Positions 33,150 through 56,992 of a stretch of DNA of 64,000 nt are shown one piece after another (position 1 is the first letter of the stretch; every line of letters begins with the position of its first letter). This stretch comes from Bacteroidota bacterium (lineage in GTDB: Bacteria > Bacteroidota > Bacteroidia > Bacteroidales > UBA12077). The DNA lies in contig JAHLLG010000001.1 of the NCBI GenBank assembly GCA_020444275.1, positions 771,773 to 835,772 of the forward strand, in the 5' to 3' direction. Under the pieces are notes generated by a model. That model did not search any database and was not told where the DNA came from. It saw only the letters and a list, made by a program, of their open reading frames with translations. A program made the position numbers and the translations under genes.

Positions 33150-33671
33150 AATAGTAAAATTGATCTTTACTCAAAGGTAGTTATTTTCAATATTTTATTG
33201 GTTATTTTATTCCTAAAATATAAATGTTTTGCTTTATAAATATTATGATTAAGAGATTTATTTAAACCTTGCTAGAAGATTTTAGTTATATTTTATTTCA
33301 GATTCAAAGGCTTATTCTGTTTAGCAATATTTGTTATTCATGTTAGCTAATTTATTTTTTTACCAGGTTGAAAAGGAATAATGGACTGATTACAATGCAA
33401 AACTAGTAATAATTACCTGTTATAATCTGGTTATATATTTTAATTAATACGTAAAATTACTCATTTAAATTAGCATAAAATAATGTAATATAGTAACTTG
33501 AATTACTGAATTGAAATATAGATTGATCATTAATTCTATAGCTTTCATCAAAAATATTGTAACAGTAATAAATTTAACTCATTTAGTATGTAACTTTTAA
33601 CGTTTTATATTGTACACAATTAAGGTTAAGTGTAGCTTGTAGAGATTTAATAATTAATGACCATAATTATT
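33150..33671. other. Intergenic region upstream of the giant surface gene
   Basis: These 520 very AT-rich bases contain no ORF with coding character. The only structure I note is a short palindrome, ATTGT-AC-ACAAT (33609-33620), 52 bases before the start codon. No convincing TAnnTTTG box was found. The long leader may carry the promoter and regulation of the giant gene. Confidence 0.5.
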
Positions 33672-36600
33672 ATGAAAAAATATAACAAAATTTTAAGGAA
33701 AATAATACCTGTCTTTATATTGGCAAGTACTATATCAGTTAATTTAAATGCACAAACTGGCCCAGGTGGTGTTGGGAATAGAGATGGATCCAATGCCCAA
33801 CCTGAAGTTTTATTTTGGCTTAGTGCTGATTCGTTAGGTTTAAGCAATGGAAGCCCGGTAACTTTATGGAATGATATATCCGGTAACAATAGAGATTTTG
33901 CGCAGGGTACCGTAGGAAACCAACCAGCATATGTAAGCAGTGGAATAAATTCCATACCAACGGTTAGTTTTGATGGTACAGATGATTTTTTGGAAGACGA
34001 CGATGCAGAGAATTATATCAATGGCTTATCAGGAGTATCGGTTATTGCTGTTGTTCAATCCAACGAGATAGGAAGTGATGCAGGATTTTTCGATACTGAA
34101 GACCCGGATGGACAAGATGATTTATTAGCTATTCGATATGATGAAGATGGAGCTAGTAGTACTTTTGGAGAAGATGTTATAAAAATTGGTCTTGAAACAT
34201 CTTCCGGAAATATTCAAATGGAAAGTTCTGAATTTATTCAATCTACAAGCCCCCAAATGTTTACTTTACAATGGAATTCAGGAGGAACATTAAATCTTTA
34301 TGAAGATGGAACATTAGATACACCAACATATCTAGGACCAACTCTAAATATAGGAGGTACGATACAAAATACTACTAAAGCGATAATAGGAAGAGGCCCA
34401 AAAGATGCAGCCGATGGATGGAATGGATATGTTTCTGAAGTGATCTTAGTTGGAGAAAATCTTAGTCAGGCTCGAAGAAATATTATTGAAAATTATTTAT
34501 CTGAGAAATATAATATTGCCATATCCAATGATTTGTTAACCTCTTTAGATGCTGCATATAATAACAATATTGCAGGTATTGGTGAAGAAGCAGATGGCCA
34601 GCATACCACAGCTGCCAGTGCTGGAATGTATCTTACTGCTTTAAGTGGTTTAGGAGTGGGTGATTATGTTTTTGCTTCACATAATAATTTAACGAATAAT
34701 ATTGCAAGTTTCAGAACTAGTTCTGACGCCGAAATAGCTGCAGCAGGAGCTATTGAAGCATATAACAGAACCTGGTATGTTGAAAAAGTCAACACACCTA
34801 CAGCAAGGATAGGCTTTGACTTTAGTGAAGCGCTGGAGGATGGTTTATTTCCAACGAATTATTCAAATTATGTATTGTTATACAGGGCTGGAACTTCAGG
34901 AAATTTCTCGAAAGTAAAAAATGCAGATGGTATTGAGAATGGTGATCAGGTTTATTTTGATTTAAACGATGCACAATTGCAAACAGGTTACTATACTTTA
35001 GCTACCGAAGATGATGCTATTTCTCCATTAGAAGGTATTCCTGGGCGTACATGGTATACCTTAATTGGTGGCGATTGGGACAATTGGGAAATCTGGACAT
35101 TAGACCCATCGGGAGCATTACCTAATAATCCTAACAGTTATACTCCCTCCACATCGCCTACAAATACAGCGGATAAAGTTGTGATTAAAACAGGTAGGAC
35201 AGTAACCGTTTCAAGTGACAGTTTAGATAATGCAAGTTTAGTTATAGAGGGCCGGTTGGATTTACAAACTACAACAGGTCATAATTTTGGTGAGATTAGG
35301 GGAACAGGCCGGGTTTTACTTGCAGCGGATAATTTTCCAGATGGTGATGCCTCGCACTTTTATACTAAAGGCCAGGGAGAAGGAACTGTTGAATATTATG
35401 GAGGAAGTTATAAATTATCTACTGCCAGAGAGTTTTACAATGTAGAAATTGAACTGGATAATCCCGCGAATATTATAAAAATGGCTGCAGATTATAACAT
35501 TAATGGTAATCTGTATGTTACAAATGGTATTCTTCAAATAAATGATGAAACAAATACAACTCCGCTCCAAATAGATGTAGCTGGTGATGTTAATGTTGAT
35601 AAAGAAACAGCTTTAAGTACAGAGGGTAAAATAACTGTTGGTGCTGTTGATGCATACGATAGTGGTGCTCAAACAGGATATGGAAATTACCATAAAGGTT
35701 TTCATGTTTTTAGGATAGGAGGTAACTTTACAAATAATAATAGCGTTCGCTTTACGAAACAAACTAATCCCGATTATGATAGCAGGGCTACTAATGGTGC
35801 AGTTTCATTAGTTTTTTACGGAGCTGCTAATAAAACGTTTTCTTGCTATGGTACAACAGATTTATATAATCTTGTAATTGATAAAGGAACCGATCGAACA
35901 TATGAGTTACAAATATATGCTGATGATAAGGCAGATTTCACTTTGTTTGGACAAAATAATCTGAATTGGGATGTTACAGATCCAGCTAATCCTGAAATGC
36001 GCAAAGCTTTATGGATTAAAAATGGTACACTAACATTAAAAGGCAGTGTATATATTCCTAGTTTATCGGAGGGAACTGTAGATTTTACCATTGGGCAAAA
36101 TGCTAGGTTAAAATTAGATGGAGACAATGTATTTGTTGGTAATACAGCCAATGAAGCAACTACATGGACAGGCTATTCTCATCCTGGCACACCAGATGGT
36201 ATTGATATTAATGGTGCGAATCAGGGGTTATATGTTTTAGGTAAGCTGCAGGTGGACAATGGTCATTACTATTTAGGTGAAGCAGAAGCAATTAACTTTA
36301 GGGATGAAGCATCCGGGATAATTGAGGTAAATGGTGGGTTATTGGAAACGAATCAAATTGCCATAAGTAGTTCGGCAACACTAGGAAATTTCTCTTTCCT
36401 TGTTAATGGTGGTGAAGTCAGAATCACAAGAGAATATGGAGGAGATGATAACCGGGCAATGCTTAATCTGGATACCGAAGATATGGTATTCTCTATGTCA
36501 GGGGGTGAACTTTATATTGAAGATGTAACAGGTCATGATCCAAATTGCATCCATATTGCAAGCCTGGAAGGTAATTATAATGTTACAGGGGGTACTGTTT

Positions 36601-39600
36601 ATATTGATGTAAATGATAATGCAACAGTGAGATCAACGGCTCCTTTTTATAATTTACAGATTAATAATGGATCGACGCTAACGCTGCAAGAAGATCTTAC
36701 TGTTTTAGGCGATTTAACCATTGAGAATGGTGCTACATTAACAACAGCTGGTTTTGATGTATATGTTGGTGGCGATTTTGACCTTCAGAATGGAGGAACC
36801 TATACCCATGGTGGTAATACAACGCATTTTATTGGAAATGGAAGAAGTAATATTTATGTGCGTAATACATTAAATTCCGGAGAATTACTGTTTAATAATG
36901 TAACCCTATCCAAAGATCAAAGATACAATACTTCTTTATTTCATAGAGTTGAGGTAAATAGTCCGGGACGTAATTCTGATGTGCATCCGGTTGAAATTCA
37001 GGGTAATCTTTATATTGAGCGAGGTGAATTTGATGTAGATGAGTGGGAAGTAGATGTTCACGGTAATATCGAAATTGTGGACGGTCAAATTATTTCATCA
37101 GAAACTGTAAATCCTGAAGGTTGGATTGTGTTAAATGGTTCTGTTCAACAAACCATTAAAGGGTCTGATACTAAAGAACAGGAATTTGGCTCGTTTGAAC
37201 TAGATAATGCAAATGGCGTATTGTTATTAAGTGATATCAATGTTAACGACTTTATCTTAACACCTAATGGAGGAAATGCATTAATTGACTTGGATATATA
37301 CAATATGGATATCTCCGGTGATGTAACTTTAACCACCGGAGCATATGGAAATTCAATAATGTTTCAAACAGCAGGAAATGCTTCTGATGGAGGATTAGGG
37401 TTGGCTGTTAGTCTTGAAGATCGAAATTATTCCAATGAAACAGTTGCTGAATTTCCAATAGGGTCTTCCGGGGTTTATAATCCGGCATATGTTTATATTG
37501 ATGGTAATCCTAATGCTACTTCAGGTACTTTATCTATAAATGGTGTTGACGGATTGCATCCTGCAGGAACATCAGGAAATGCTCTTGAATACTATTGGGT
37601 TACAGATGCTGATGGTTTTAGTGGTATAAATAGTACTGCAATAAATTATGTTTTTACCTATCCGGCAGGATTTGATAATGGCTGGCAGTGTTATTATTTA
37701 GAAGAAGGAGAAACAGATTGGATTAAAGATAATTCTGATGCTTCCCCAAATGCTTACTTTTATGATGTTGGAATGATTAGCGGAGATTTTGCAGTTGGTA
37801 ATAACTCAGGATTTAATAACCTAACTATTTTTTATAGTAGGCAGGATGGAAATTGGTCTAATAAAAATTCATGGTCAAAAGATTCTTATGGTGGTGCAGC
37901 TTCAAATAAGACACCGGAAATGTATGATATTGTAAAGATTGGTTATAGTGGCTCTCCAGGTTCATACACAAGACATAGAATTACTTTAGATGTGGGTACA
38001 GCAGCAGTACCTACAGAAATAGCTCAGCTGGTTCTGGAACAAAATCCAGAGGCCGGTGCCATAGAAACCAATATGTCTAGATTAATAATTCTGCCAACAA
38101 CAGGATTAAAAATAAATGGAACAGTATCTGGTGATGGAGAAATTCAATTCCAAATGGATGGGGCAAATATTCCTACTCTGGAGGGTGATTTCGGAGATTT
38201 TGTAAATACAGAAGGTGCCAGCTTTATTATGCGATCAAATAATGGAAATGTTATGGCACCAACTAATCTTACTCGTTTTCCTAGATTAAGTGTACCAGGT
38301 TCAGATGTAACTTATGATGATACAAGATCTGTAACATTTACAACAGATATTTATTGTCATAACCTGAATGTAAGATATGGAGGAACACTACTGCTAAATA
38401 ATGGAGCCAAGGGTGATATTGAAGTTAGGGATTCTTTAAGAATTGGTGGAATAGGTACCGATAATGAAGGACGAATTATTTACCAAAATAATGGAACTGC
38501 CAGAACAATTAAGGTCGGAGGAGATCTGGTTTTTGATACGGATGGAACAACAAACGATCATAATCAATTATATGTAGAAACGGGAGGTACTGATAATCTT
38601 GAACATTATTTGCAAGTTTATGGAGATATAATATTGCGTAATCCCAACTCATATATGGATTTATGGACAGCAAATGATGGAGCACAGAGTAATGTAATAT
38701 TAGAACTTCTTGGTGAGGATAATGCAGAATTTAGTGATGTAAATAATACAGGACCAGAGTTATATCGAATTGTAATGAATAAAGGTGGTTCAGGTTCGGC
38801 GACATTTGATTTTAATGATGCTTTTATACTCAATGGCCCTACTGATGGAAATGAAAAAGCTATTGAACTTATTAGCGGAAGGCTGGGGTTGCATGATTCA
38901 GGTATAGATGAGACTCTTACATCGGGAGGCGCTGATTTCAAAATACCATCGGGCAGTGAACTTTGGCTGGGAAACAGCTCTACAGTTCGTGTGAGTGGAA
39001 ACAATACGGGTATTTGGCTTGATGGAACCCTTACAGTTGGATATGGAGTAGAAGCTTTATTTAATGAAGGTACGAATAATTACATCCAATATACTTCCTC
39101 TGGAAACTCTGAAATTATTATTAATAGCGGAAGCAATAAATTTTATGTGGGTTCGCAAATACGTCGTGCAACAACTACCGAGGAAGGTATTTTAAATTTT
39201 AATTTATCCACTGCTACAGCTGATGTAGTAATTGGAACCAATGCCGATCAAGGAGGTGAAACTACACGAGGAATTTTTGAACTGGTAAATACCGGGTGTA
39301 ATTTTACTCAAGTGGCTGGTTCGAAAATATCGATAGCAAATGGTGTTACAAATGCATCAGCCCCTTCACTATACATCGATTTAGATCCTTCAGAGGTTAG
39401 TTTGGGAAATGGTTCTGTCATTGCATTTGGAAGTTCAGATACTAAAGCAGGTCAGAGTATGAGTATTTATTCTTCAGTTGATCTTAAAAATGTTGAAGTG
39501 GATAATAGTTCAACGAACGATCCGCAATTAACCATGTCTACTGTATCATTAACATTAGATACTTTAACTATTGATGCCCTCACGACATTTGATGCCAATG

Positions 39601-42600
39601 GACTTGATCTTAACCTAAACGGAGATTTAATAGCAAACGGGGCATTTACTGCAAATCAGAATAATACATACTTTTTAGGAACCAATAATCAGCAAATTGT
39701 TGGTAGTCCAACATTCTGGAATTTGTATAAAACAACTTCAAATCAATTACTATTAAATAATGATATCGATGTTGATAACGAACTTGGATTAAATGCTGGT
39801 ACGTTTAATGATGGAGATAACACCTTAAGTGTTCAGGGTAGTGTGAATATGGATATAACAACAACCTGGGGAGCATCCAGCGATGGTATTTTAATGAATG
39901 GAAATACCGAACAGGTCTTGACCGGAAATGGTACTTTTGGTAAGCTATCAATAAATAATTCCGCTGGAATATCCTTACCACAGGGTAATGAGTTTACCAT
40001 AAGCGGTGAGCTTCAATTGGAAAATGGTGTATTGGATATAGGTAAGAATTTACTTGTTTTAGATGAGAATGCGATCATAAGAGAAGAGAATGCATTTTCT
40101 GAAAACAATATGATACAGACTAACATTTCATTTACCGATGCGGGAGTAAAGAAATTATTTCCTGCTATTATACCGGCCGATAATTATGATTTTATATTTC
40201 CAATTGGTTCAGAGGGTAAATATACACCTGTTGAAATGGATATAGATAATGTTGATGCAAATGGATCAATTCGGGTGAAAGGTGCCAATGAAATGCACCC
40301 AACCATAACAGATGATACAGAACCCTGCAATGAACTGGATGATGTTTTAAATGTATTGAAGTATCACTGGGTATTAGAAGCAAGTGGAATCTCTGGTTTT
40401 AATGCAGATGTAAGTATGCAATATTATTCCGAGGATTATCAATTAAATTCTACAGATTACAATGTAGATGATTATATTGCAGCAAGATTGTTATTTGGAA
40501 GTACGTTGTGGAATAAATATGGTGAGACAAGTTTTGATGAACTTAATAACTTATTGAAATTCACTTTCAGTAATGCAGATGATAATGGAATAAGTGGAGA
40601 CTATACTGCGGGTGTAGAAGATCAAGGAGGAGGCTGCGAAGGTGCAATCCCAGATGAAGTGCCAATGTATATTAGTAAACAAGATGGTAATTGGACTGAT
40701 GCTTCTACCTGGGAAACGTATCCTGATCCTACTGGAACAGTTCCATCTGGTGGACCAAGAGGTGCTATTGTTATTGTAAAAGACGAAGTGACTGTACCAA
40801 CCCCTTATATTGTGAGTTACAAGACAATCATACAAAGCACAGGAACGGTTGATGTTGGTACAACATTTGGACATCGTTTAGGTATTGTTGAAGGTACAGG
40901 AACTTTGCGGTTAGAGAGAGGTAATTTACCGGCAGGTGTTTACGATGATTTCTTTAGTCGAAGTGGAGGTACTATTGAATTTACTGGCTCAGACGACTAT
41001 GATGTATTAAGTGAGGTGAATAATGTTCGTAATATAATATTTTCGGGTACTGGAGAACGAAGACTACCTAATCTAGATTTTGAAGTATATGGCGAATTTA
41101 CCATTGATGGTTCTGATGGAAACCTTTGGGTAATTAATGAGCATGATAGAGATATGACTTTAGATAGTAATATAATCTTTAATCAAGGTAAATTTGATGC
41201 TGGTTTGGATCCTTCTACAGTTACTTTTGGAGGTACAGATCAACAAATAATATCTGGCACAGGAAGTTTTACCAGTTCTAATGCATTTAGAAATGTTATT
41301 GTTAATAATTCAAATGGAGTAACACTTTCAAGTCCTGCAGAGATTAAAGGAACGTTAGCATTTACAACAGGTGTTATTACTACTGATGCAACCAATATAT
41401 TAACGATTAATAACACATCAGAAACGGCTGTTTCAAGAGTTCCTAGCACTATTAGTAATTATGTTGATGGGCCAATGCGTAAATTAATACAAAATGGTGG
41501 TAATTTTGATTTCCCTGCGGGAGATGCTGGAAGATATGGCCCGGTATCAATTTATAATACTACCAATGGTAGTTCTGCTTATTGGATAGCTGAATATTTC
41601 AATACAGGACACACAAGCAGCAGTGTAATAGGTGCTCTCGTTGATGTAAGTACTGATGAATATTGGGCCATTGATAATCCTGCAGCTGGAGATGCTGCGG
41701 AGATTGAATTGCGTTGGGATTCTAATAGTACTATAACACCACTTACAACTGGAGATATTAATGAAATCGTAGTTGCTGAATATGCTGGTTCCGATTGGAT
41801 TGATAAAGCATCTGATAATCCTTCTGGAGATAATTATGATGGTACAGTAAAAACATCAGCAGCTATTAATACGGATCCAATCTATTATACATTGGGTTCA
41901 ACTACAACTATTCTGGCGCAGGCTTACTTTACGAATCCAGATGATGTATGCGAAGGTGTAGGTATTCCTGTTTCATTCGCTGGGGTTGATGGAACAAATC
42001 TGAGCTATACATTAGATTATGATTATTTTGATGGTTCAACGACAACATCAAATTCAGTAACAGTAGATGCATTGCCTTATAGCTTGCCAACAACAGATGG
42101 AGCTGGCACATATGAGTTAACAGGTTTTGAATATAATAGTGGAGGAAATACAGGTACTGTCAATAGTACAGTGGTTACAGCAAATGCAGCACCAGCTCAA
42201 CCTACCATTTCGGCAGTAGGAGAGCCAGGATCATTAACATTCTGTAATGGTGGAAGTGTAATTTTAACATCTAGTGCTGGTACAGATTACTTATGGTCGA
42301 CAGGAGCAACAACACAAAATATTAACGTTACAACATCGGGTAATTATACAGTTCAGGTATCTAATGCAACAGGCTGTTACAGTGTAGCATCCGACCCAAA
42401 AACAGTTACGGTAAATCCATTGCCATCTGTAACCGTAAGTGCAGTACCGGCAACGATATGTTTTGGTGAAACATCTGTATTAACTGCTACAGGGGGTGGA
42501 ACCTATTTGTGGAGCCCTGATGCAGATCTTGATTCTAATACTAGTCCTAACCCTACATTCGACCCTAGCATAACGGGTACTAATCCAACAAGTCCGACAC

Positions 42601-42731
42601 AAGTAACCACAACATTTACGGTTACGGTTACAAATGCTGGATGTTCTGATACTGGAACGGTAGATGTAGTTGTAGTGAGAAAACCCGAAACCGGTCCCCA
42701 GTATCATATTAAAAACGATTGGGGAAATTAA
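33672..42731 (+). CDS. Giant secreted repeat protein 1 with PxTGPxYH tail
   Basis: This 3019-residue protein starts at the ATG at 33672, which gives signal peptide MKKYNKILRKII...LNAQ. Next is a LamG/concanavalin-like domain (about 38-285; FWLSADSLG, WNDISGNNRDF, VSFDGTDDFL, NYLSEKYNI). Then come three large modules, each opening with a G-x-W-x(5)-W motif, near residues 459, 1387 and 2332 (GGDWDNWEIW, QDGNWSNKNSW, QDGNWTDASTW). Each module continues with long beta-solenoid-like repeats and contains a FPxG-x-x-G-x-Y-x-P element. Ig-like domains follow from about 2755. The last 15 residues (42684-42731) are PETGPQYHIKNDWGN. No type A or B T9SS sorting domain is visible. Likely a cell-surface adhesin or matrix protein. 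Repeat-domain paralog of the gene at 44952. Confidence 0.85.
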   Translation: MKKYNKILRKIIPVFILASTISVNLNAQTGPGGVGNRDGSNAQPEVLFWLSADSLGLSNGSPVTLWNDISGNNRDFAQGTVGNQPAYVSSGINSIPTVSFDGTDDFLEDDDAENYINGLSGVSVIAVVQSNEIGSDAGFFDTEDPDGQDDLLAIRYDEDGASSTFGEDVIKIGLETSSGNIQMESSEFIQSTSPQMFTLQWNSGGTLNLYEDGTLDTPTYLGPTLNIGGTIQNTTKAIIGRGPKDAADGWNGYVSEVILVGENLSQARRNIIENYLSEKYNIAISNDLLTSLDAAYNNNIAGIGEEADGQHTTAASAGMYLTALSGLGVGDYVFASHNNLTNNIASFRTSSDAEIAAAGAIEAYNRTWYVEKVNTPTARIGFDFSEALEDGLFPTNYSNYVLLYRAGTSGNFSKVKNADGIENGDQVYFDLNDAQLQTGYYTLATEDDAISPLEGIPGRTWYTLIGGDWDNWEIWTLDPSGALPNNPNSYTPSTSPTNTADKVVIKTGRTVTVSSDSLDNASLVIEGRLDLQTTTGHNFGEIRGTGRVLLAADNFPDGDASHFYTKGQGEGTVEYYGGSYKLSTAREFYNVEIELDNPANIIKMAADYNINGNLYVTNGILQINDETNTTPLQIDVAGDVNVDKETALSTEGKITVGAVDAYDSGAQTGYGNYHKGFHVFRIGGNFTNNNSVRFTKQTNPDYDSRATNGAVSLVFYGAANKTFSCYGTTDLYNLVIDKGTDRTYELQIYADDKADFTLFGQNNLNWDVTDPANPEMRKALWIKNGTLTLKGSVYIPSLSEGTVDFTIGQNARLKLDGDNVFVGNTANEATTWTGYSHPGTPDGIDINGANQGLYVLGKLQVDNGHYYLGEAEAINFRDEASGIIEVNGGLLETNQIAISSSATLGNFSFLVNGGEVRITREYGGDDNRAMLNLDTEDMVFSMSGGELYIEDVTGHDPNCIHIASLEGNYNVTGGTVYIDVNDNATVRSTAPFYNLQINNGSTLTLQEDLTVLGDLTIENGATLTTAGFDVYVGGDFDLQNGGTYTHGGNTTHFIGNGRSNIYVRNTLNSGELLFNNVTLSKDQRYNTSLFHRVEVNSPGRNSDVHPVEIQGNLYIERGEFDVDEWEVDVHGNIEIVDGQIISSETVNPEGWIVLNGSVQQTIKGSDTKEQEFGSFELDNANGVLLLSDINVNDFILTPNGGNALIDLDIYNMDISGDVTLTTGAYGNSIMFQTAGNASDGGLGLAVSLEDRNYSNETVAEFPIGSSGVYNPAYVYIDGNPNATSGTLSINGVDGLHPAGTSGNALEYYWVTDADGFSGINSTAINYVFTYPAGFDNGWQCYYLEEGETDWIKDNSDASPNAYFYDVGMISGDFAVGNNSGFNNLTIFYSRQDGNWSNKNSWSKDSYGGAASNKTPEMYDIVKIGYSGSPGSYTRHRITLDVGTAAVPTEIAQLVLEQNPEAGAIETNMSRLIILPTTGLKINGTVSGDGEIQFQMDGANIPTLEGDFGDFVNTEGASFIMRSNNGNVMAPTNLTRFPRLSVPGSDVTYDDTRSVTFTTDIYCHNLNVRYGGTLLLNNGAKGDIEVRDSLRIGGIGTDNEGRIIYQNNGTARTIKVGGDLVFDTDGTTNDHNQLYVETGGTDNLEHYLQVYGDIILRNPNSYMDLWTANDGAQSNVILELLGEDNAEFSDVNNTGPELYRIVMNKGGSGSATFDFNDAFILNGPTDGNEKAIELISGRLGLHDSGIDETLTSGGADFKIPSGSELWLGNSSTVRVSGNNTGIWLDGTLTVGYGVEALFNEGTNNYIQYTSSGNSEIIINSGSNKFYVGSQIRRATTTEEGILNFNLSTATADVVIGTNADQGGETTRGIFELVNTGCNFTQVAGSKISIANGVTNASAPSLYIDLDPSEVSLGNGSVIAFGSSDTKAGQSMSIYSSVDLKNVEVDNSSTNDPQLTMSTVSLTLDTLTIDALTTFDANGLDLNLNGDLIANGAFTANQNNTYFLGTNNQQIVGSPTFWNLYKTTSNQLLLNNDIDVDNELGLNAGTFNDGDNTLSVQGSVNMDITTTWGASSDGILMNGNTEQVLTGNGTFGKLSINNSAGISLPQGNEFTISGELQLENGVLDIGKNLLVLDENAIIREENAFSENNMIQTNISFTDAGVKKLFPAIIPADNYDFIFPIGSEGKYTPVEMDIDNVDANGSIRVKGANEMHPTITDDTEPCNELDDVLNVLKYHWVLEASGISGFNADVSMQYYSEDYQLNSTDYNVDDYIAARLLFGSTLWNKYGETSFDELNNLLKFTFSNADDNGISGDYTAGVEDQGGGCEGAIPDEVPMYISKQDGNWTDASTWETYPDPTGTVPSGGPRGAIVIVKDEVTVPTPYIVSYKTIIQSTGTVDVGTTFGHRLGIVEGTGTLRLERGNLPAGVYDDFFSRSGGTIEFTGSDDYDVLSEVNNVRNIIFSGTGERRLPNLDFEVYGEFTIDGSDGNLWVINEHDRDMTLDSNIIFNQGKFDAGLDPSTVTFGGTDQQIISGTGSFTSSNAFRNVIVNNSNGVTLSSPAEIKGTLAFTTGVITTDATNILTINNTSETAVSRVPSTISNYVDGPMRKLIQNGGNFDFPAGDAGRYGPVSIYNTTNGSSAYWIAEYFNTGHTSSSVIGALVDVSTDEYWAIDNPAAGDAAEIELRWDSNSTITPLTTGDINEIVVAEYAGSDWIDKASDNPSGDNYDGTVKTSAAINTDPIYYTLGSTTTILAQAYFTNPDDVCEGVGIPVSFAGVDGTNLSYTLDYDYFDGSTTTSNSVTVDALPYSLPTTDGAGTYELTGFEYNSGGNTGTVNSTVVTANAAPAQPTISAVGEPGSLTFCNGGSVILTSSAGTDYLWSTGATTQNINVTTSGNYTVQVSNATGCYSVASDPKTVTVNPLPSVTVSAVPATICFGETSVLTATGGGTYLWSPDADLDSNTSPNPTFDPSITGTNPTSPTQVTTTFTVTVTNAGCSDTGTVDVVVVRKPETGPQYHIKNDWGN
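42684..42731 (+). other. C-terminal tail motif, copy 1
   Basis: Codes for PETGPQYHIKNDWGN and stop, preceded by a basic residue pair (RK). Confidence 0.85.
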
Positions 42732-42862
42732 AATACGGTTTTAAATGGTTTGTGAAATACAATATGTTTACACATATGAAACTTTATACCTAAAAATAAG
42801 TAAAAGCAATATTAATTGTTAATAAGGATGATTTTTAAAGTATTTAATAAATGTATTTTGCA

Positions 42863-44485
42863 ATGAAAAAATATAAAATATATTTAAAAAAGATTGTTTT
42901 GCTATTTCTTGCAACTGCATTATCAATTTTTACTGTTACAGCTCAAGATCATGAATCAAAAGATAACTATACAGGGAATTGGGAAGATGCTGGCACATGG
43001 ACTGTGGGTGATGGTAATATATCAAACGGAGATATTATAAATATTTATGGACAGGTAAATAGGAACTCCGATATATTTATTGATAATCTTGCTGAGTTGA
43101 ATGTATTTGATACTTTAATCATTTATGGAAATCTATCTGTTGGTAATAACGGAATACTAAATATTAAGACCGGTGCAATTCTTATTGTATATGGTAATGC
43201 TTTGATGAATAATAGAGTAGAAGTTGATCTTGATTCATATTTTGTTGTATTTGGTGATTACGATCAAGAAAATAATTCTGAAATAGACGCACCTGTGAAT
43301 GATACACTTTTGTATGTTTCAGGAGGTACTAGTTGTGGTAATGGCGCAACTTGTGTAGATGGTGATCTTGTTGGTGATGAGGATGATATGTATGATAATC
43401 CTGATATTGATGAGATTATTGAAGCAACGAGTAACTTTATAACTCCACGATCTCCAACACTATGCTCTGGAGGTTCTCTAGTACTAAGTATTAGAGATGA
43501 TGGAGTTAATTATGAGTGGTTTAAAACATCTGACCCTACTACTATTTTAAGCACTGAATCAACACTTACTATTACAGCAACGGGGACATATGATGTAGAT
43601 TTTGAGATTGGAGGAGTACCACAATCTGTTGATCCGGTTACGGTAACTAGTAGTGGAACGGTATCATTTAGTGTTTCTGCTGTGGTTACCAATGCTTCTG
43701 GTGTTGGCTTGAGTGATGGTGAAATTGATTTAACAGTTACTCCTTCCGGTACTTATACTTATGATTGGAGTAATGGTGAAAGAACAGAGGATCTTAGCGG
43801 ATTAGCAGCAGGTGATTATATTGTTGAAGTTGAAGATGACAATTGCCGGGTTACAGAAACTTTCTCGGTTACAGATGTGGCTTGTACAGACCCGGATTTA
43901 AGTACTGTAACTACACCTGAAATTTGCAATGGCTCTAGTTATGACATAAGCAATATTGTTGTGGTTGATGCTAATGCTACCAACCCAACGTACACATATC
44001 ATAGTGCTAGCCCTGCACTACCGGGCAATGAACTCCCCAGCACTACGGTTAGTCCAGCAGCAACAACAACATATTATATTTTAGGAACAAATGGTAGTTG
44101 TACCGATGAATTGCCAGTTGAAGTTATAGTAAATTCTCTTCCAACAGTAACCGATCAAACACCTGAAGCCATTTGTTCCGAAGCAGAAGCAGAAATGGTT
44201 CAGATAACAGGCTTGGATCTAACAGCAAATGAGGCAGCTATAAATGGAGGAGCAGGAATGTCATATGCATGGTACAACGACTTAGGTTTAACTAGTGATA
44301 TTGGAACACCAACAGCAGTTGATATAAACGATGTGTTCGGAGGTGCTACAACCTACAACATTACTTATTATTGTAAAGTTACTAATGCAAATAATTGCTC
44401 AGATGTAGCATCGGTTACCTATACAATATACAGAATCCCCGAAACGGGTCCACAATATCACCTTGATAATAGTTGGGGTAATTAA
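42863..44485 (+). CDS. Secreted protein with SprB-like repeat and PxTGPxYH tail
   Basis: This 540-residue protein starts at the ATG at 42863 with signal peptide MKKYKIYLKKIVLLFLATAL...TAQ. One short GNW-x(5)-W module follows (YTGNWEDAGTWTVGDG) with parallel beta-like repeats to about residue 140. An Ig-like domain is at about 195-270. A SprB-type repeat (about 278-335; GLSDGEIDLTV, YDWSNGERTEDLSGL) matches the repeat named after the F. johnsoniae gliding adhesin. A further Ig-like domain and a roughly 95-residue domain (PTVTDQTPEAICSE...VTYTIYRI) follow. The protein ends PETGPQYHLDNSWGN. That last domain and tail closely match the end of the 3173-residue protein. It follows giant gene 1 without an obvious terminator, so cotranscription is possible. 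Confidence 0.83.
   Translation: MKKYKIYLKKIVLLFLATALSIFTVTAQDHESKDNYTGNWEDAGTWTVGDGNISNGDIINIYGQVNRNSDIFIDNLAELNVFDTLIIYGNLSVGNNGILNIKTGAILIVYGNALMNNRVEVDLDSYFVVFGDYDQENNSEIDAPVNDTLLYVSGGTSCGNGATCVDGDLVGDEDDMYDNPDIDEIIEATSNFITPRSPTLCSGGSLVLSIRDDGVNYEWFKTSDPTTILSTESTLTITATGTYDVDFEIGGVPQSVDPVTVTSSGTVSFSVSAVVTNASGVGLSDGEIDLTVTPSGTYTYDWSNGERTEDLSGLAAGDYIVEVEDDNCRVTETFSVTDVACTDPDLSTVTTPEICNGSSYDISNIVVVDANATNPTYTYHSASPALPGNELPSTTVSPAATTTYYILGTNGSCTDELPVEVIVNSLPTVTDQTPEAICSEAEAEMVQITGLDLTANEAAINGGAGMSYAWYNDLGLTSDIGTPTAVDINDVFGGATTYNITYYCKVTNANNCSDVASVTYTIYRIPETGPQYHLDNSWGN
44438..44485 (+). other. C-terminal tail motif, copy 2
   Basis: Codes for PETGPQYHLDNSWGN and stop, preceded by TIYRI. Confidence 0.85.
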
Positions 44486-44512
44486 AATAGTAAACATCTT
44501 TAATTTATATTA

Positions 44513-44550
44513 ATAATCCTTAACATGCATTAGTTAAGGATTATTTTTTA
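44513..44550 (+). terminator. Terminator after the 540-residue protein gene
   Basis: TAATCCTTAAC (44514-44524) pairs with GTTAAGGATTA (44533-44543), with an 8-base loop and a T run. Confidence 0.8.
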
Positions 44551-44696
44551 GATATGCACAAAATACAAAAACATACAACATTTGCACTAACGAGATGTTG
44601 ATAAAGTTCATAACCCTAAGATAAATAATCGATTAATGTTATATTATCCCTTCACCATTATATCGGTTATACCGAATAGATGTTATTATCCTGTCC

Positions 44697-44712
44697 CCCG
44701 ATAGCTATCGGG
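44697..44712. repeat. REP-like perfect palindrome
   Basis: CCCGATAGCTATCGGG is a perfect 16-base palindrome of a type I recall as dispersed in Bacteroidota genomes. A second CGGGATCC follows closely. Confidence 0.5.
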
Positions 44713-44784
44713 AATCGGGATCCTAAGAAGTAATAAAGTTCAATTGCGTTATATATTAAAGCGTTAGTTCTAAATATAAAATTT

Positions 44785-44792
44785 TATATTTG
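44785..44792 (+). promoter_or_regulatory. Candidate promoter box for giant gene 2
   Basis: TATATTTG matches TAnnTTTG. No clear -33 element is present (only TTAG 17 bases upstream). It would give a leader of about 150 bases. Confidence 0.4.
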
Positions 44793-44951
44793 TAATGTGG
44801 AATGGGTTTTTATCAATAAAATTGGACGATTGATAAAACATTGTATAGTATTAATAAAAAAAAACCTGATTTAATAACCTGAATCGCAACTATTTAACTT
44901 TTTTCTAGTAAAAATATGTATATTCGCGTTTTCCGTAAAATTCCCTTAATT

Positions 44952-50900: not shown

Positions 50901-53900
50901 CCGATTTGGGATCTCACGATAAGTGCTAATGCTAATGTTGAACTTCTAGTTAGTCCGTTAACTGTGAAGAACGACCTTACTATTGCTAGTGGTGGAACGC
51001 TGGATGCAAACATAGATTTTGATATTCCGGTAACCATCAATGGCGACTTTGATAACTCCGGGATATACGAACACCGAAATAATGTTACTACATTTAATGG
51101 CGGTACACAGCAAATACTGGGTAGTGCTGCAATTGATTTTTACGATTTAACAGTAAATTCTTTAACTAAACTTACGTTAAATAGGGATGCAAATGTAGAT
51201 AATGATTTAATTTTGAGTAGCGGAATATTAGAGTGCGCTGCAAACACAGTGTATGTTCAGGGCGATGTAACCAATAATGCAAACTATACCGATACTAATG
51301 CAGGTTTGGTGTTAAATGGAAAAGCACAACAATATTTATATGGTACCGGAACATGGGGACAACTAGAGTTAGATAATAATCAGGGAGCTAGAGTAGAAGA
51401 TGATATTACTTTGCAAAAAGATTTAATATTAACAAAGGGTATTTTAGACATCAATGATCAATTGTTTACATTGCAAGCAACCAGTGATATTTTAGGTGCA
51501 CCGTTCGACGAAACTAAAATGATTACCTCAGATGGTGTATTTAGTAATGTTGGATTGCGTAAATATTTTAGTATCTATTCAGGTGCCGACCAAACATTTT
51601 TATTCCCTATTGGTACTTCCGGAAAGTATACTCCTGCCGAACTTACTTATTCTGATATTGGAAGTGTTGGTTATATTCGTATTAATAATATTAACAAATT
51701 CCATCCTGGAGTTTTAGATAATGCAAATGTGTTAGATTACTACTGGGAGATTGAAAGTGATGGTATAACAGGGTTTAACGGATCGGTTGTTCTTAACTAT
51801 TTAGATGGCGATGTGCAGGTAACTGGAGCGAATACAGAAGCAGACTATATAGCAGCAGCGCTATTATTACCAGGAACAAGCTGGTCGAAGGCTTCACCAG
51901 GTGCTGCTACCGATAGAGTTGATGAAACAAACGATTTAATCACGTTTAATTTCTCTGGCACAAGTTCTTTATCAGGAGAATATACAGCGGGTATAGATAA
52001 CGCACTACCTGATCTTGTCCCCGAATATACTAGTATAAATGATGGCGATTGGTCTGATGAAACGAACTGGGCCAATACGGGGGGGGATACATATCCTTGT
52101 CCTGTTGGTGGTCCTAATGGTTTTATTATTCATATTGACTCCGATGATGTTATAACTACAGATGCGCTTTATGCATCGGCATATCGGTTAACTATTGATG
52201 GGGAACTAAGAATAGATAATGCTACATACGGTCATAATTTGGGTACTGTTTCCGGAGCAGGAACATTATACCTGGAGAATGGTACGTTTCCTGCTGGCCG
52301 ATTTGGCGACTTCTTGGATTGTGCAAATAATGCAACACTGGAATATGGTGGTAGTACAAATTATACCATAATTGCCGATCTGTATTCATCAGTTCCGAAT
52401 CTCCACTTTACTGGAACAGGAACCAGGACATTACCAAATAATGATCTTACTATTTGTAATCAACTATTGATTGATGGTCCTACATTAGATAATAGTGCAA
52501 ATAATAGTAAACTAACAATTCAAGGTACAATGGAACGTTATAATACGGGTAAATTTGTTAGTGGTACAGGTTCAAATGCTACGGTTAGTTTTGCAGGTTC
52601 AGCTGCACAAACTATTGGAGGAGCTCTGGGAGACTTTACAGGAGTAAATGCATTTAATAACTTTGAAATTAATAATAGTGCAGGATTAACCATTAATACA
52701 AGTGGTGATATCGAAGTAAGCGGCGATTTGATATTAACCAATGGAAACATTGTTACAACGTCCACCAATACTTTAACCATTACGAATACTGATATGAATT
52801 GTGTTTCTCCAGCTGGAGGTAGCTCTTCATCTTATATAGATGGTCCTCTAACGAAATATATTAATCAGGGGGATGATTTTCTATATCCAATAGGTAAAGG
52901 TTCTGTGTTAGGAAATAAAATAACACTTTCTTCTGTAAGAACTGGAACCATAGCTTGGACTGCAGAGTTCTTTACACCCAATGCAACGTATACAGACTTT
53001 GGAGCTCCATTAACTTATGTAAATTCAAAAGAATATTGGACCATAAGTGCTAGTTCTGGTGATCAAGCTAAGGTTGGTTTAGATTGGGATCCAGCAAGTG
53101 ACCTCACTCCATTAATGACACAGAACGGAACAAGCGATATGCGTGTTGCAAATTATAACGCAGGATCAACGCAATGGGAAGAAGTGTCTTCAACACCTTC
53201 TGGAGATAATAACAATGGAACAGTTACAACAACATCCGAAGTAACATTACCTGCGAGTGGAACAGCCGATTATACTACATCATGTATTAATGTTACCAAA
53301 CCAAGGGCACGTTTAAATCCATCAGGAGCAGTTTGTGGTACTGATGGTATTCCGATTACATTTACAGGATCAGCATTAGCATACGATTATATTTTAACCT
53401 ATGAAAAGGGCGGTATTTTACAAGCACCTGTTACTATAACATCTGCTGATGTGCCTTACACGCTGCTAACAGATGCTGCAGGTACAACGTATCAGTTAAT
53501 TAGCTTTATATATGACGAACCGGGTAATTCTACAACCGGGGTAGTTGATCCTTCAATCATTACAACATTCACGGTTCCAACGACTGCTGACATTGGAAAT
53601 GATGGAGGACTGGACGATGATGATATATCAGATTGTGGAGGGACTTCAGTAGCAAATTTACCAGGAAATGATCCGGCGCCATACACTGGTTTATGGACTG
53701 TAGTTTCTGGAAGTGGTGGTTCTTTTGTTGATCCTACGGACTTCGACACAGAGTTTAATGGTACCAATGGTACTACATATGAACTTCAGTGGACCATAAC
53801 AAATGGAGGTTGCTCATCGAGCGACAATATTACGATTGCTTTTCCTGTTAGTAATAGTATAACATTAACATCGGCAGTTAACACAGATAATCAGACTGTT

Positions 53901-54473
53901 TGTATCAATTCAGCAATTGTTGATATTACTTATTCCACTGTAGGTGCTACAGGAGCTACCTTTTCAGGATTGCCAACAGGTGTTACAGGTTCATGGGTTG
54001 CAGGTGTAGTAACAATTAGTGGAACCCCTACGGTTAGTGCAGGAAGTCCATACAATTATACCATAACGCTGACTGGTGGATGCAGTGTGCCAGCTGTAAC
54101 TGAAATAGGTACGATCACCGTTAATGCTTTACCTACAGCAATTGACCAAACACCTGCACCTATATGCTCTGAAGTAGCAGGTGAAACGGTTCAGATAACA
54201 GGTTTAAATTTAAGAGATAATGATGATTTGATAACGGCTAGCTCTGGAGATGCAGTTACCTGGTATAATGACGCAGCATTAACCAGTCCAGTAGCAGATG
54301 CAACCGATGTGGATATTAATGATGTTTTTGGTGGAGGAACAAATATTACAGAAGTATTTTATGCTGAGGTAGATAACAGTAATTGTAAGGCTGTAGCCAC
54401 GGTTACTTATACTATATATAGGATTCCCGAGACGGGTCCGCAGTATCATATTGATAATAGCTGGGGTAATTAA
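44952..54473 (+). CDS. Giant secreted repeat protein 2 with PxTGPxYH tail
   Basis: This 3173-residue protein starts at the ATG at 44952. The signal peptide ends near SVFSQ. An N-terminal jelly-roll/MAM-like domain (about 28-195; DDFETDKGWTYSAW, WDGFRVEYSDNGGSTW) precedes a LamG-like domain (about 200-435; MVYWLRGDLG, WADQSGNGNDATD, FDGTNDAL). Three large GxW-headed modules begin near 447, 1436 and 2358 (QTGNWNQSSTW, QTGLWTDTDTW, NDGDWSDETNW), each ending in an FPIG-type element. Several Ig/PKD-like domains follow from about 2796. The last is a roughly 95-residue domain shared with the 540-residue protein, and the protein ends PETGPQYHIDNSWGN. It has no canonical T9SS CTD. Likely a cell-surface structural or adhesive protein. 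The architecture parallels giant protein 1, so the two arose by duplication. Confidence 0.85.
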   Translation: MKFLPYRLFILLVILSLASQSVFSQTIIFSDDFETDKGWTYSAWIRDNTSFSGSDGNHCHITPFNNYTNYLSAIVTSPIIDFTGYTTLNLSLDVRYNTEADWDGFRVEYSDNGGSTWNVLGAVGDGANWYNDNDVNAIGNNEHGWSGDNAAWETASISLPASLINTSNVQIRVRFESDAFVVDEGIAFDNFEITGVEIPIGNSADMVYWLRGDLGVTETSGTVTNWADQSGNGNDATDANGPTQITFAAMNNQEVMSFDGTNDALGIGDDARINTSEAFERTMFIAFTTGANVSTTQYLYEEGGNTNGIGVFIKGGKLYVIFYNDGNTTIKSNIVYESVNTNTAYILSFNWDSGNLTALLNNSAFSNQTITGTMTSLKAHGADISIGHTGGNTRNETGGVHSGPDYFSGQIAELIYYDAALSEVDEVEINNYLGDRYGVDVSVDFDIYYSYQTGNWNQSSTWTHDPGGTTQTATDIPNSGDKVVILNGRTVSLAADVDSTNLDVTIREGGFINQSTFQFSAGLSALRGAGTFKLASVNYPTVTTNDFVNTDGGTTEYNNAADFTLPASQSNYYHLRINAPGVVATQLSDITLNGDLHIKQGTYRINDNTAARRKLTIQGDVLVDNGASLTVGTGVTNTTTDPLGIIGGTAPFIDYYDTQSHRVVLKGDFTNNGNVRFTNLNYPVFNSFPPTTVGATTGFATVYFMGATNNTLTCNGTTDFYNLVLDKGIDQTYKLTVYSTDYQNFRLFGANTAGGDGGGANPNLKKALWLRTGSLVLKGLTIIPSLSEGTCEEDGTPYPVANPNSDFYIPSNAALILDGSEVIVLSTADDYREINLGYGVSGGSGTVNGVGRGGCSSFSILGKLQINNGYFSTRESGGFITWDDASGQFEINGGIVDAKQYRSAGSSGGLASFIQTGGTFLLRGQFQRTPTAYASINDLKDFSTNTLNTTRSSSGLNGALGTFNINEAANVFSMSGGTISIYDVCGTAAGQNGAFEVFSDVANNSVTGGTVEIIPTAGASGTDATQYIIETTAELGNLTINRTSGTATVDINTYDITILEDLTITSGELDANDLDVSIGGDFIIENGTSYTPGANWTIFNGSGAQSFEMNTGAALNINKFKVDKPSSTVLTLAGTQNTLNVADSMMIITGTLADGGKTVNLAGSIATSYLYNSGVHTGSGSIVLNDDDPQIITGDGNGIFENIELNNTDGSTAPVSLGANTAINGVLTFSQDNLFDISTYKLNLGEDAAIINAGTNRFIQSAGNAGDGGLTKTYSASSNTFTFPIGAPSSSHVAAEYTPATLSFSSAPTVYGSITVVPVGYEHPNTTNKNRSLTYFWRTKSEGFTLGSAVINHAYTYSDNDVIDNGTTITEDEYVAATYDNASYTWTKYNVTDVVDGTNTIGGTGTALASLNYIDCEFTAGDDTPIADDPFGTPVVYYSRQTGLWTDTDTWTFNDTHSGASAGSIPGASDIVIIGGQDSVYLATNLTTPNTGVQNAATLKIEQGSALDIGYNYDCNFGIVLSHENGNGNFRITTDFTDRSDFIFPNGDFSDYNVNKGTTEFYSVNPNTNTYFVLPSNTNSYGTVILSPLDQSNIVFPNISEVTFYGDLITRGTNWESWFGLTWLTTAGYPAIIPKTVTVKGDLLLERGSLVYIGNNAIQQTVVVEGDVIIFPTSGIDVYAGGGQNSFANTLSIAGDLINNSNNTPAPSGGHAGSNARFYVNANRKIDLVFTGNSNSSITNTGTTPATGSAPNTILGYVSVNKGNSQATTLTVDIGGTLSTGLQDDWLTLENGTFRYEHDGDLRITEDSQFTIPSTAGLYINAPGNTVYLANDNVDNNDVYLNGKLTIIDGDVYIGETGAPNNNNDIEYSGGGNSEIDIRGGSLTVNGQIRRNPSTSAGILKYNQSGGDVTINGRDVLAENAKLEILNAGSEFNMSGGTLTIVRGGGDGTFGDLYLRPETSTVTGGEIIFNPTSAQNFIFDANVPIWDLTISANANVELLVSPLTVKNDLTIASGGTLDANIDFDIPVTINGDFDNSGIYEHRNNVTTFNGGTQQILGSAAIDFYDLTVNSLTKLTLNRDANVDNDLILSSGILECAANTVYVQGDVTNNANYTDTNAGLVLNGKAQQYLYGTGTWGQLELDNNQGARVEDDITLQKDLILTKGILDINDQLFTLQATSDILGAPFDETKMITSDGVFSNVGLRKYFSIYSGADQTFLFPIGTSGKYTPAELTYSDIGSVGYIRINNINKFHPGVLDNANVLDYYWEIESDGITGFNGSVVLNYLDGDVQVTGANTEADYIAAALLLPGTSWSKASPGAATDRVDETNDLITFNFSGTSSLSGEYTAGIDNALPDLVPEYTSINDGDWSDETNWANTGGDTYPCPVGGPNGFIIHIDSDDVITTDALYASAYRLTIDGELRIDNATYGHNLGTVSGAGTLYLENGTFPAGRFGDFLDCANNATLEYGGSTNYTIIADLYSSVPNLHFTGTGTRTLPNNDLTICNQLLIDGPTLDNSANNSKLTIQGTMERYNTGKFVSGTGSNATVSFAGSAAQTIGGALGDFTGVNAFNNFEINNSAGLTINTSGDIEVSGDLILTNGNIVTTSTNTLTITNTDMNCVSPAGGSSSSYIDGPLTKYINQGDDFLYPIGKGSVLGNKITLSSVRTGTIAWTAEFFTPNATYTDFGAPLTYVNSKEYWTISASSGDQAKVGLDWDPASDLTPLMTQNGTSDMRVANYNAGSTQWEEVSSTPSGDNNNGTVTTTSEVTLPASGTADYTTSCINVTKPRARLNPSGAVCGTDGIPITFTGSALAYDYILTYEKGGILQAPVTITSADVPYTLLTDAAGTTYQLISFIYDEPGNSTTGVVDPSIITTFTVPTTADIGNDGGLDDDDISDCGGTSVANLPGNDPAPYTGLWTVVSGSGGSFVDPTDFDTEFNGTNGTTYELQWTITNGGCSSSDNITIAFPVSNSITLTSAVNTDNQTVCINSAIVDITYSTVGATGATFSGLPTGVTGSWVAGVVTISGTPTVSAGSPYNYTITLTGGCSVPAVTEIGTITVNALPTAIDQTPAPICSEVAGETVQITGLNLRDNDDLITASSGDAVTWYNDAALTSPVADATDVDINDVFGGGTNITEVFYAEVDNSNCKAVATVTYTIYRIPETGPQYHIDNSWGN
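54426..54473 (+). other. C-terminal tail motif, copy 3
   Basis: Codes for PETGPQYHIDNSWGN and stop, preceded by TIYRI as in copy 2. Confidence 0.85.
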
Positions 54474-54889
54474 GTTTTTAACAATTGTTGATTATACTTA
54501 TAAAATTGAAAATGGAGATGTTAATAAATAGGTATTTATACCTAAAATGATAAGGATAAATAATTGTATATTAGCTTTATTATTTATAAAAATATAATAC
54601 TTAATTAAAAGAACTATTATAGGGGGAGGTGTAAATCATCAAAGAATAAGTTGGTTTTATCTATAAAAGTGATGCATTAACAAAATGACATTTGGCATTA
54701 ATCATTAAATATGATACTTTTACACGCTTTAAGAACAGATTGATCAAACTCAAAAATAATATTGCAACCATATACGCGAATCAACGTTAAACTCTATAAA
54801 ACGAAAAAACTGTATTAATTACAACAACAAACACAATGGCTTAATACAGAAAAATTGAAAAAATAAATATTAACTTAAACTTTTAGATC
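54474..54889. other. Intergenic region before the 317-residue protein
   Basis: These 416 AT-rich bases have no ORF. TTTATACCTAAAA at 54535-54547 repeats exactly a 13-base string found at 42783-42795 behind giant gene 1. A purine-rich GGGGGAGG lies near 54622. No clear terminator was found. The promoter of the next gene must lie here, but I could not locate it with confidence. Confidence 0.5.
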
Positions 54890-55843
54890 ATGAAAAAAAC
54901 AAACTTTTTAAAAATTGTAATGACGCTGGTTATGGCGTTTGTTATTACTGGAGCGTTTGCTCAAACAGCAGTTCCTGGAACATCTACAACTGATTATGAT
55001 GCTGCTGGAACAGTAACTGTAATGGAAGGAACAACAGTGCCGTTATATGCACTTCCAGATGGAAACTATCATCCATCTTATGATGCCGATGCTGGAACTG
55101 GATTAACTGCAGGATTTACTTGGTATTGGACAGAAGCACAAGGTGATATTAGTTTTAGTAACAACAACACTGATGCAACAACTTATGACAATTTTGATAA
55201 TTATACTACAATGTCTGGCTTCACTGTTGCGAATTCACCTTATACTGTTAATGTAAAAGAGATTGCTCCAGAAGCTTGGGGTGCTTGTACAGATGCAGGT
55301 GAAAATCTTACTGTTAATGTTGTTGCACAACCTACTGCAACATTAGCTTCAACAACTGCAATAGATGTTTGTGAAGGGAATGGTCCAACTGATGTAGTTG
55401 TTACAACTGCAGATGGATGGCAAAATTATCGTTTGGTGTGGACTTTAGAAATTGCTACTTTAGATGCAGTAGGTGGATCTAAGGATGAATATTTTGATGA
55501 TGAAGATGGTAATGGAGCTGCTGCTGGACAAAAATATGTACCAGAATCTGCATCAGAATCAGCTCCATTAGCTATTGGTGGAGCAGCAGGAGGAACAGCA
55601 GATATTATGACTGTAGCTGACTTTTTGGTAATCAATTCAAAACCAACAGTTTATACATATACTTTAGTGAGTATAAACGATCAGGCATCTCGTTTTGGTG
55701 ATTTTATTACTGTAGATGGTGATGATACTGTACCAGAAGATTTCACTTATTATGCTATCGCTGGTCAAGAACTGGTAATAACTGTAAATCCTGCTCCTAA
55801 TACAGGACCAATTTACCATATTATAAATACATGGGCGCAATAA
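54890..55843 (+). CDS. Secreted 317-residue protein with PxTGPxYH tail
   Basis: The signal peptide (MKKTNFLKIVMTLVMAFVITGAFAQ in two parts, cleavage after about 25 residues) is followed by two Ig/PKD-like regions. The first runs about 40-150 (FTWYWTEAQGDISFS, SPYTVNVKEIAPEAWG) and the second about 150-300 (VCEGNGPTDVVV, YRLVWTLEI). The protein is acidic and alanine/threonine rich, and it ends PAPNTGPIYHIINTWAQ. I know no family name. Its small size and place directly before the type B CTD protein suggest an abundant subunit or adaptor of the same surface assembly. A strong terminator follows it, so it is probably transcribed separately from the CHU_C gene. Confidence 0.85.
   Translation: MKKTNFLKIVMTLVMAFVITGAFAQTAVPGTSTTDYDAAGTVTVMEGTTVPLYALPDGNYHPSYDADAGTGLTAGFTWYWTEAQGDISFSNNNTDATTYDNFDNYTTMSGFTVANSPYTVNVKEIAPEAWGACTDAGENLTVNVVAQPTATLASTTAIDVCEGNGPTDVVVTTADGWQNYRLVWTLEIATLDAVGGSKDEYFDDEDGNGAAAGQKYVPESASESAPLAIGGAAGGTADIMTVADFLVINSKPTVYTYTLVSINDQASRFGDFITVDGDDTVPEDFTYYAIAGQELVITVNPAPNTGPIYHIINTWAQ
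55796..55843 (+). other. C-terminal tail motif, copy 4 (divergent)
   Basis: Codes for PNTGPIYHIINTWAQ and stop. It shares P-x-T-G-P-x-Y-H-I-x-N-x-W with the other three tails. Confidence 0.8.
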
Positions 55844-56952: not shown

Positions 56953-56992
56953 ATTTGGAAATTAAAGATAGATTGATTTGTTTTGTGGAGTA

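Follow-up and report, generated by a model that had tools for sequence, protein, structure and literature searches.

The model that we propose here concerns a short peptide tail at the C-termini of clustered surface proteins in a 64,000-nucleotide stretch of the genome of a Bacteroidota bacterium (assembly GCA_020444275.1, contig JAHLLG010000001.1, positions 771,773 to 835,772; the whole of this stretch is called the window throughout). Four window proteins, two of them giants and the others of 544 and 317 amino acids (aa), finish in P-x-T-G-P-x-Y-H-[IL]-x-N-x-W-x-x right at the stop codon. Their genes are followed on the same (+) strand by two directly adjoining genes, the first encoding a small protein that carries a type B C-terminal domain (CTD) of the type IX secretion system (T9SS), which we call the adapter, and the second a PorP/SprF barrel (Table 1). 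With a probability that we put at about 0.62, the tail takes the place of a T9SS CTD by way of the adapter, as a short C-terminal signal, modular in nature, for sorting and attachment.

According to this model, the cargo (giant adhesin-like proteins, proteins of ~300 aa and GG-repeat proteins), having no CTD of its own, would reach the periplasm by its Sec signal peptide. The tail would be read by the dedicated adapter of ~340 aa, with its type B CTD at the C-terminus and its gene beside that of a PorP/SprF shuttle, and the PxTGPxYHIxN peptide would most likely bind the adapter's N-terminal domain by beta-strand addition. The adapter's CTD would then carry the complex through SprA, PorP would hold it at the surface, and the net result would be a two-partner type B secretion with signal and cargo on separate proteins. 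The SprA translocon is present in the genome (TIGR04189, 2720.5 bits); the type A model matches 44 times there, and nine type B CTDs score above cut-off (10 at E<=0.001). PorP/SprF proteins are the carriers of type B CTD proteins and also retain them (PMC9143113, PMC12618676, PMC12635249).

The strongest evidence, at the level of sequence, is a swap in which homologous proteins end in a known T9SS signal in genomes without the adapter, and in the tail in genomes with it. In one genome of the order (G396; our handles for genomes begin with G and those for loci with L), an unlinked gene encodes a 467-aa protein of GG-x3-GY-type repeats that ends in PKTGPLYHIPNTFAP. Homologues occur in eight of 386 genomes of the order (E<=1e-8). 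They end in the tail in four genomes, namely G396, G265 (PKTGRIYRKPNNSGL), G088 (PATGPIYRLPNN) and G218 (PKTGAVYHIANNIAK), and in the type A CTD of TIGR04183 in three (G289, 44.2 bits; G036, 49.1; G078, 34.3; cut-off 23); the end of the eighth (G285) is masked, and it counts for the adapter only. All four tail genomes have a full-length adapter (profile positions 1-3 to 333-334, E 2e-104 to 1e-119, in open reading frames (ORFs) of 335-379 aa). No full-length adapter was found in G289, G036, G078 and G285, where the matches begin at position 45 or later, reach E values no better than 3e-47 and lie mostly in longer proteins. Among the eight genomes compared, the adapter profile thus matches from the start of the N-terminal domain only where the GG-repeat protein has the tail, and the four others are not among the 42 genomes matched by the tail profile described below. 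The adapter gene of G265 lies between a gene with a variant tail at its end (PTPVTQPVRHIKN) and PorP. Genes similar to one another precede the GG-repeat homologue in seven of the eight genomes (not in G036), and all five neighbours tested (G396, G265, G289, G088 and G078) match FGE-sulfatase (PF03781).

The tail is also anchored at the C-terminus. Across the 4.22-Mb genome the DNA pattern P.TGP.YH has four matches, all in the window, and at the family level 26 across 14 of 25 genomes, with none for a reversed-pattern control in either case; every one of the 26 is closed by a stop 10-17 codons past the P. A first tail profile, built from 30 tails and searched in 393 genomes of the order, matched in 42, and reading of the loci confirmed a C-terminal position in 37; in the other five the match was internal (G111, G323) or no tail was found at an ORF end (G130, G199, G349). 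An earlier reading made from the window's letters (the sequence-only reading) had taken up the possibility that the pattern falls at random positions. What we find is 92 C-terminal matches vs a single internal one at E<1e-3 among 1025 ORFs from loci taken around tails, and a C-terminal tail in 63 of 63 matching ORFs at E<0.01, among the 1193 ORFs of 80 loci fetched by the adapter.

The tail is 12-15 residues long and is carried by giants, by proteins of ~300 aa and by the GG-repeat protein, those intact at their start being mostly of ~260-440 aa or ~2900-5100 aa. The consensus offered by the sequence-only reading needs correction: its core is P-x-T-G-x-x-Y-H-[IVL]-x-N, and its WGN/WAQ end is a feature of this lineage only. 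Among the residues after YH, this genus has WGN, one family NN[IV]AK and others PNN or PNQ. T-G is not kept in every tail (e.g. TTQPIYHI), and in the sister genus, with the same gene order, the tails have diverged (for example PSTGTIYHVPNTYER and PTTQPIYHIGNQQSWQ). A second protein of ~270-330 aa with the tail P-x-T-x-x-I-x-H-[IL]-x-N occurs in L180, L182, L185, L197, L149, L154 and L155; such second variant-tail proteins of ~300 aa (e.g. PTPTTSPIQHLKNL) are encoded after the main small tail gene and before the adapter. We see the tail only in this order. A wider profile (72 tails) searched in a phylum sample of 395 genomes at E<=0.01 matched the own genome alone, and we rejected a phylum-wide spread on that count of 1 in 395, in which diverged tails may be missed; the non-matching genomes among those listed (20 of 394) all belong to the same order or class. 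As a separate observation, a further large protein of G088 (L263:6832-9999, minus strand) ends in PVTGPAYRLPNN, and both large proteins seen in that genome have YR in place of YH.

Linkage of tail genes to the adapter was assessed in a scan of genome contigs with an adapter alignment, in which the tail was not used and which gave 142 candidate stretches and 125 relatives; the best 80 of the 125 were taken. A 310-420-aa adapter and sequence upstream of it are both present in 45 loci; in 43 of these a tail gene lies on the same strand within 1.5 kb upstream, and in L193 the upstream tail is a variant only. Four further loci lack upstream sequence (L168, L179, L188, L195), and 31 have no adapter ORF of 310-420 aa, L177 being broken by Ns (its tail genes are present) and the other 30 having longer or cut ORFs. 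These loci overlap with those handled under genome names, several being the same contigs (for instance, L193 with G265 and L164 with G010). PorP is usually the next gene after the adapter, so that the conserved set consists of a small tail protein, an adapter of ~340 aa with a type B CTD and a PorP/SprF barrel; the steady neighbourhood of CHU_C-type and PorP genes for which the sequence-only reading suggested looking is thus found. A tally started from the tail finds the adapter within the fetched stretches of 35 of the 37 tail genomes; it is unseen in G352, where the contig ends nearby, and in G339, from which the giant's locus only was fetched.

In several genomes the giants lie away from the adapter locus. 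On the single 3.2-Mb contig of G333 the two giant tails lie at 83 and 93 kb, and the adapter and its small tail gene ~160 kb away from the giants, at 253 kb; therefore, if one signal serves all cargo, the tail would act in trans. Apart from this, in L170 (8665-9899) an adapter fragment (its first ~96 aa) and two small genes, which by eye look like an HEPN/MNT-type module, separate the small tail gene from the intact adapter, as if by insertion. A contig of 4720 bases labelled Acidobacteriota (L200) carries all three genes of the set (small tail protein, adapter, PorP); the label is probably a binning error.

Proteins in which adapter and cargo form one chain provide a further line of evidence. 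In L186, L187 and L202 the whole adapter, including its N-terminal domain, is the C-terminal part of a longer protein without the tail (at least 1018, 955 and 536 aa, respectively, each cut at the start of the locus). The stretch before the fused adapter is Ig (immunoglobulin)-rich by eye and ends in YPEPAPAF, YPVPDPQF or FPVPAPVF, the Ig strand closing with Y/F-P-x-P at the point where a tail would start; separate cargo has a final strand and proline of this kind ahead of its tail. A further 26 loci (L218-L243) match the adapter in its later part only, and the matching part closes a protein that is longer or cut (for example, L228 with 2184 aa and L237 with 2107 aa). No tail was found in these 26 loci, at least seven of which include the gene start. 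On these sequences, we interpret the separate tail and adapter as a two-component version of this machine, in which the CTD would have been split off as an adapter and the cargo re-linked to it by the tail; the direction of this change is a guess.

These relatives bear on a rival scheme, in which the neighbouring PorP/SprF barrel (or the translocon) reads the tail directly, as a minimal T9SS signal, and the small protein with the type B CTD is just a further cargo of that barrel. PorP does usually follow the adapter gene, and PMC12618676 describes PorP proteins as reading type B CTDs with high specificity. Against a direct reading, loci in which the same type of CTD ends long proteins show no tail, and the fusions of long proteins with the whole adapter place the adapter just where the tail would lead. 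The variation of the tail, too, tracks the N-terminal domain of the adapter more closely (r 0.353) than PorP (0.241), with the CTD last (0.119), albeit in a weak test. We consider direct reading by PorP unlikely.

The same comparison of tail similarity across 39 loci yields a partial correlation of 0.394 for the N-terminal domain given the CTD, and r values of 0.332 for the second Ig-like domain of the adapter (Ig2), 0.269 for the body of the small protein and 0.207 for the first (Ig1), all without a significance test and in a mirror-tree approach that separates adapter parts weakly. Within genomes, the tails of small and large proteins resemble each other after YH (mean score 2.28 in the same genome vs 1.36 between groups), a resemblance reached by 7 of 5000 derangements, and no within-genome resemblance was found in the seven residues before the tail (0.16 vs 0.43). 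The set comprised 30 genomes in nine groups, some of the large proteins being contig fragments; G000 was included, the sister genus (G004) formed its own group, f43b and f43c were merged into f43 and f39b into f39, and G401, a 68-aa fragment and all six X-labelled loci (four of them not known duplicates) were left out. Co-variation of this kind fits one shared reader per lineage. It is partly a matter of shared descent, because other genomes of the same family already score 1.96 vs 2.36 for the same genome.

For a structural view, the small tail gene, adapter and PorP of L164, which share one frame and could therefore be folded as a single tethered chain with the stops read as serine, were co-folded. 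The tail residues IYHI form a strand (residues 293-296) only with the partners present, with a predicted local distance difference test (pLDDT) value of 72 for the tail block; folded by itself, from the same 15 sequences as used for its part of the chain, the small protein shows no strand at the tail and a block pLDDT of 66. The co-fold thus lends weak support to docking of the tail into a partner, as the sequence-only reading had suggested. In a Foldseek search with this model, most of the 50 matches listed were Ig, cadherin and similar chains, and none of them names a partner of the tail.

The strand propensity of IYHI would also suit a subunit joint, with the tail completing another tail protein in donor-strand style to give a multi-protein fibre based on the adapter. 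Several tail proteins per locus, some loci with a second variant-tail protein of ~300 aa, and Ig-type domains in many of the parts speak for such a fibre. We nevertheless regard it as improbable, more so than direct reading by PorP: the GG-repeat protein and the giants bear the same tail from unlinked places, and a joint between polymer subunits explains the exchange with a type A CTD less well than does a sorting signal.

The window proteins themselves agree largely with what the sequence-only reading had described. All four end exactly at the tail, which occupies the last 15 codons before the stop, the proposed lengths of 3019, 540, 3173 and 317 residues fit ORFs of 3024, 544, 3185 and 317 aa given a later ATG, and each bears a Sec-type signal peptide ending A-Q or S-Q by eye. 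Nor did they match any type A, B or C CTD model (TIGR04183, TIGR04131, NF033708; 0 NCBIfam families at E<=0.1), as had been claimed for types A and B. Their last 60 aa gave one sub-cut-off match in NCBIfam and four in Pfam, all in protein 1 and none a sorting domain, and we rejected the tail as a known CTD or other named family, since no Pfam or NCBIfam model covers it. The four tails are, however, not four independent cases, because the giants are homologous (30% identity across 2559 columns) and the last ~139 residues of the 544-aa protein match giant 2 at 54% identity.

This relatedness could conceivably mean that the tail is merely inherited, as the final strand of an Ig domain that the proteins share at their C-termini, given that both giants and the 544-aa protein have C-terminal parts in common. 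We give this very little credence: the tail is the sole meaningful similarity of the 317-aa protein to giant 2, the GG-repeat protein has no Ig match, and the residues before the tail show no resemblance within genomes. A purely local repeat was rejected likewise, on account of the 317-aa protein sharing just the tail with giant 2. The suggestion of an undescribed attachment or export signal is supported by C-terminal anchoring, by carriers with no detected similarity outside the tail and by the regular neighbourhood of a type B CTD protein and PorP; the protein family that carries the tail or a type A CTD, according to the presence of the adapter, counts most in its favour.

The letters x-P-x-T-G resemble the LPXTG motif of sortase substrates, and PEP-CTERM and LPXTG likewise are short C-terminal signals on unlike proteins. 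One could thus envisage PxTG as a sortase-like cleavage site, at which the tail is cut and the cargo covalently joined to the surface. We hold this to be highly improbable and have rejected it: the sortase family PF04203 was not found in the own genome by a search that was positive in three of 14 control genomes, no hydrophobic span or basic end was found after the motif, and T-G is missing from some tails (as in TTQPIYHI), with conservation running past the would-be cut to YH..N. The same lack of a membrane span and basic end sets the tail apart from PEP-CTERM, and a PEP motif with a membrane helix, as used by exosortase, was not found in the tail proteins, either in their sequences or with NCBIfam.

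Several observations weigh against our proposal that the tail works through the adapter. The swap comprises seven readable repeat-containing proteins (E 8e-39 to 2e-10), and these are small numbers. The four genomes without a full adapter have other type B proteins; those of G078 and G285 are of 430-435 aa and match from position 47-50, with C-termini unlike the adapter's and preceding genes without the tail. G265, whose variant tails escaped the profile, is missing from the 42 tail-profile genomes. Some proteins of ~300 aa carry a variant tail without Y, and L189 has an adapter with no upstream tail gene. The type A CTD model also matched in all 14 tail or adapter genomes tested, 7 to 96 times, and the tail would therefore be an extra route and not a replacement of type A. 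As to the docking site, Ig2 of the adapter correlates with the tail nearly as well as does the N-terminal domain (0.332 vs 0.353). The co-fold is weak (best model with a mean pLDDT of 72.3 and a predicted template modelling score of 0.46) and does not separate adapter from PorP, so that the partner of the tail in such models may be either.

In comparison with known systems, the adapter is likewise a type B CTD protein encoded beside a barrel, as are SprB with SprF and PG1035 with PorP (PMC9143113, PMC12618676), and its proposed role, export followed by retention at the surface, would be the same. Unlike in those systems, the big cargo here has no CTD, and a tail of 12-15 residues and a separate CTD protein are found instead. 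The T9SS signals described in PMC10202324 are CTDs of types A, B and C, and those of type A and type C (ChiA) are likewise C-terminal sorting signals on Sec-exported proteins; with the former the tail swaps on one protein family. They are domains, with models of 72 (TIGR04183) and 55 (NF033708) positions and a ChiA region of 100 residues, whereas the tail proteins of the window match no such model. In the literature outside subscription journals and preprints, neither the letters of the tail nor a short T9SS tail with an adapter was found. Tentatively, and at slightly less than even odds, we suggest a new class of sorting signal: a short unfolded C-terminal peptide, evolutionarily interchangeable with a folded T9SS CTD, that would recruit cargo of diverse size and fold in trans, including the products of distant genes, to a secreted and PorP-held adapter with a lineage-specific docking code.

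Taken together, we argue that the machine is the T9SS and that the signal itself would be a new class if docking were proved. T9SS cargo is now recognised by its CTD, so that proteins without one go uncounted; a sorting role of the tail would give a set of giant surface proteins throughout an order a predicted route and anchor. A tail so short and portable would lend itself far better than a folded domain to study and to surface display. The system, if true, would also show plainly how a secretion signal can be separated from its cargo and made into a shared adapter.

Table 1. Features of the tail cluster (window coordinates).
Feature	Position	Strand	Remarks
Giant surface protein 1, tail cargo	33657..42731	+	3024 aa; Pfam G8 above cut-off, Ig_7 below
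Tail 1, PETGPQYHIKNDWGN	42684..42728	+	last 15 codons of giant 1
Ig-domain protein, 544 aa, tail cargo	42851..44485	+	Ig_7 above cut-off, SprB repeat below
Tail 2, PETGPQYHLDNSWGN	44438..44482	+	last 15 codons of the 544-aa protein
Giant surface protein 2, 3185 aa	44916..54473	+	homologue of giant 1
Tail 3, PETGPQYHIDNSWGN	54426..54470	+	last 15 codons of giant 2
Small tail protein, 317 aa	54890..55843	+	no Pfam match; counterpart upstream of the adapter in nearly all related loci
Tail 4, PNTGPIYHIINTWAQ	55796..55840	+	last 15 codons of the 317-aa protein
Adapter, 336 aa	55942..56952	+	signal peptide, two Ig-like domains, T9SS type B CTD (TIGR04131)
Adapter N-terminal domain, residues 24-103, proposed tail receptor	56011..56250	+	putative role
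PorP/SprF family outer-membrane barrel	56978..57970	+	TIGR03519, 272.9 bits; PF11751
TPR (tetratricopeptide repeat) protein	58124..59461	+	similar neighbour downstream in genus relatives

The adapter belongs to an [LM]PMD[SA]Y subfamily. Its N-terminus is a PKD-like domain by eye, without a Pfam match, and its C-terminus scores 56.6 bits with TIGR04131 (cut-off 35) and 73 bits with CHU_C. Directly after the TPR protein, at window positions 59465-60526, lies a gene for a serine beta-lactamase/AmpH-like hydrolase, and genes that look similar by eye follow in the genus relatives L064, L065, L067, L069, L070, L074 and L075. Just past the cluster, a histidine kinase and a sigma-54 response regulator are encoded as a pair on the minus strand (60527-63236). 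Pairs that look alike by eye come after PorP in L241 and L242, both distant loci, and also flank the cluster of L074; such a pair may therefore regulate these surface systems.

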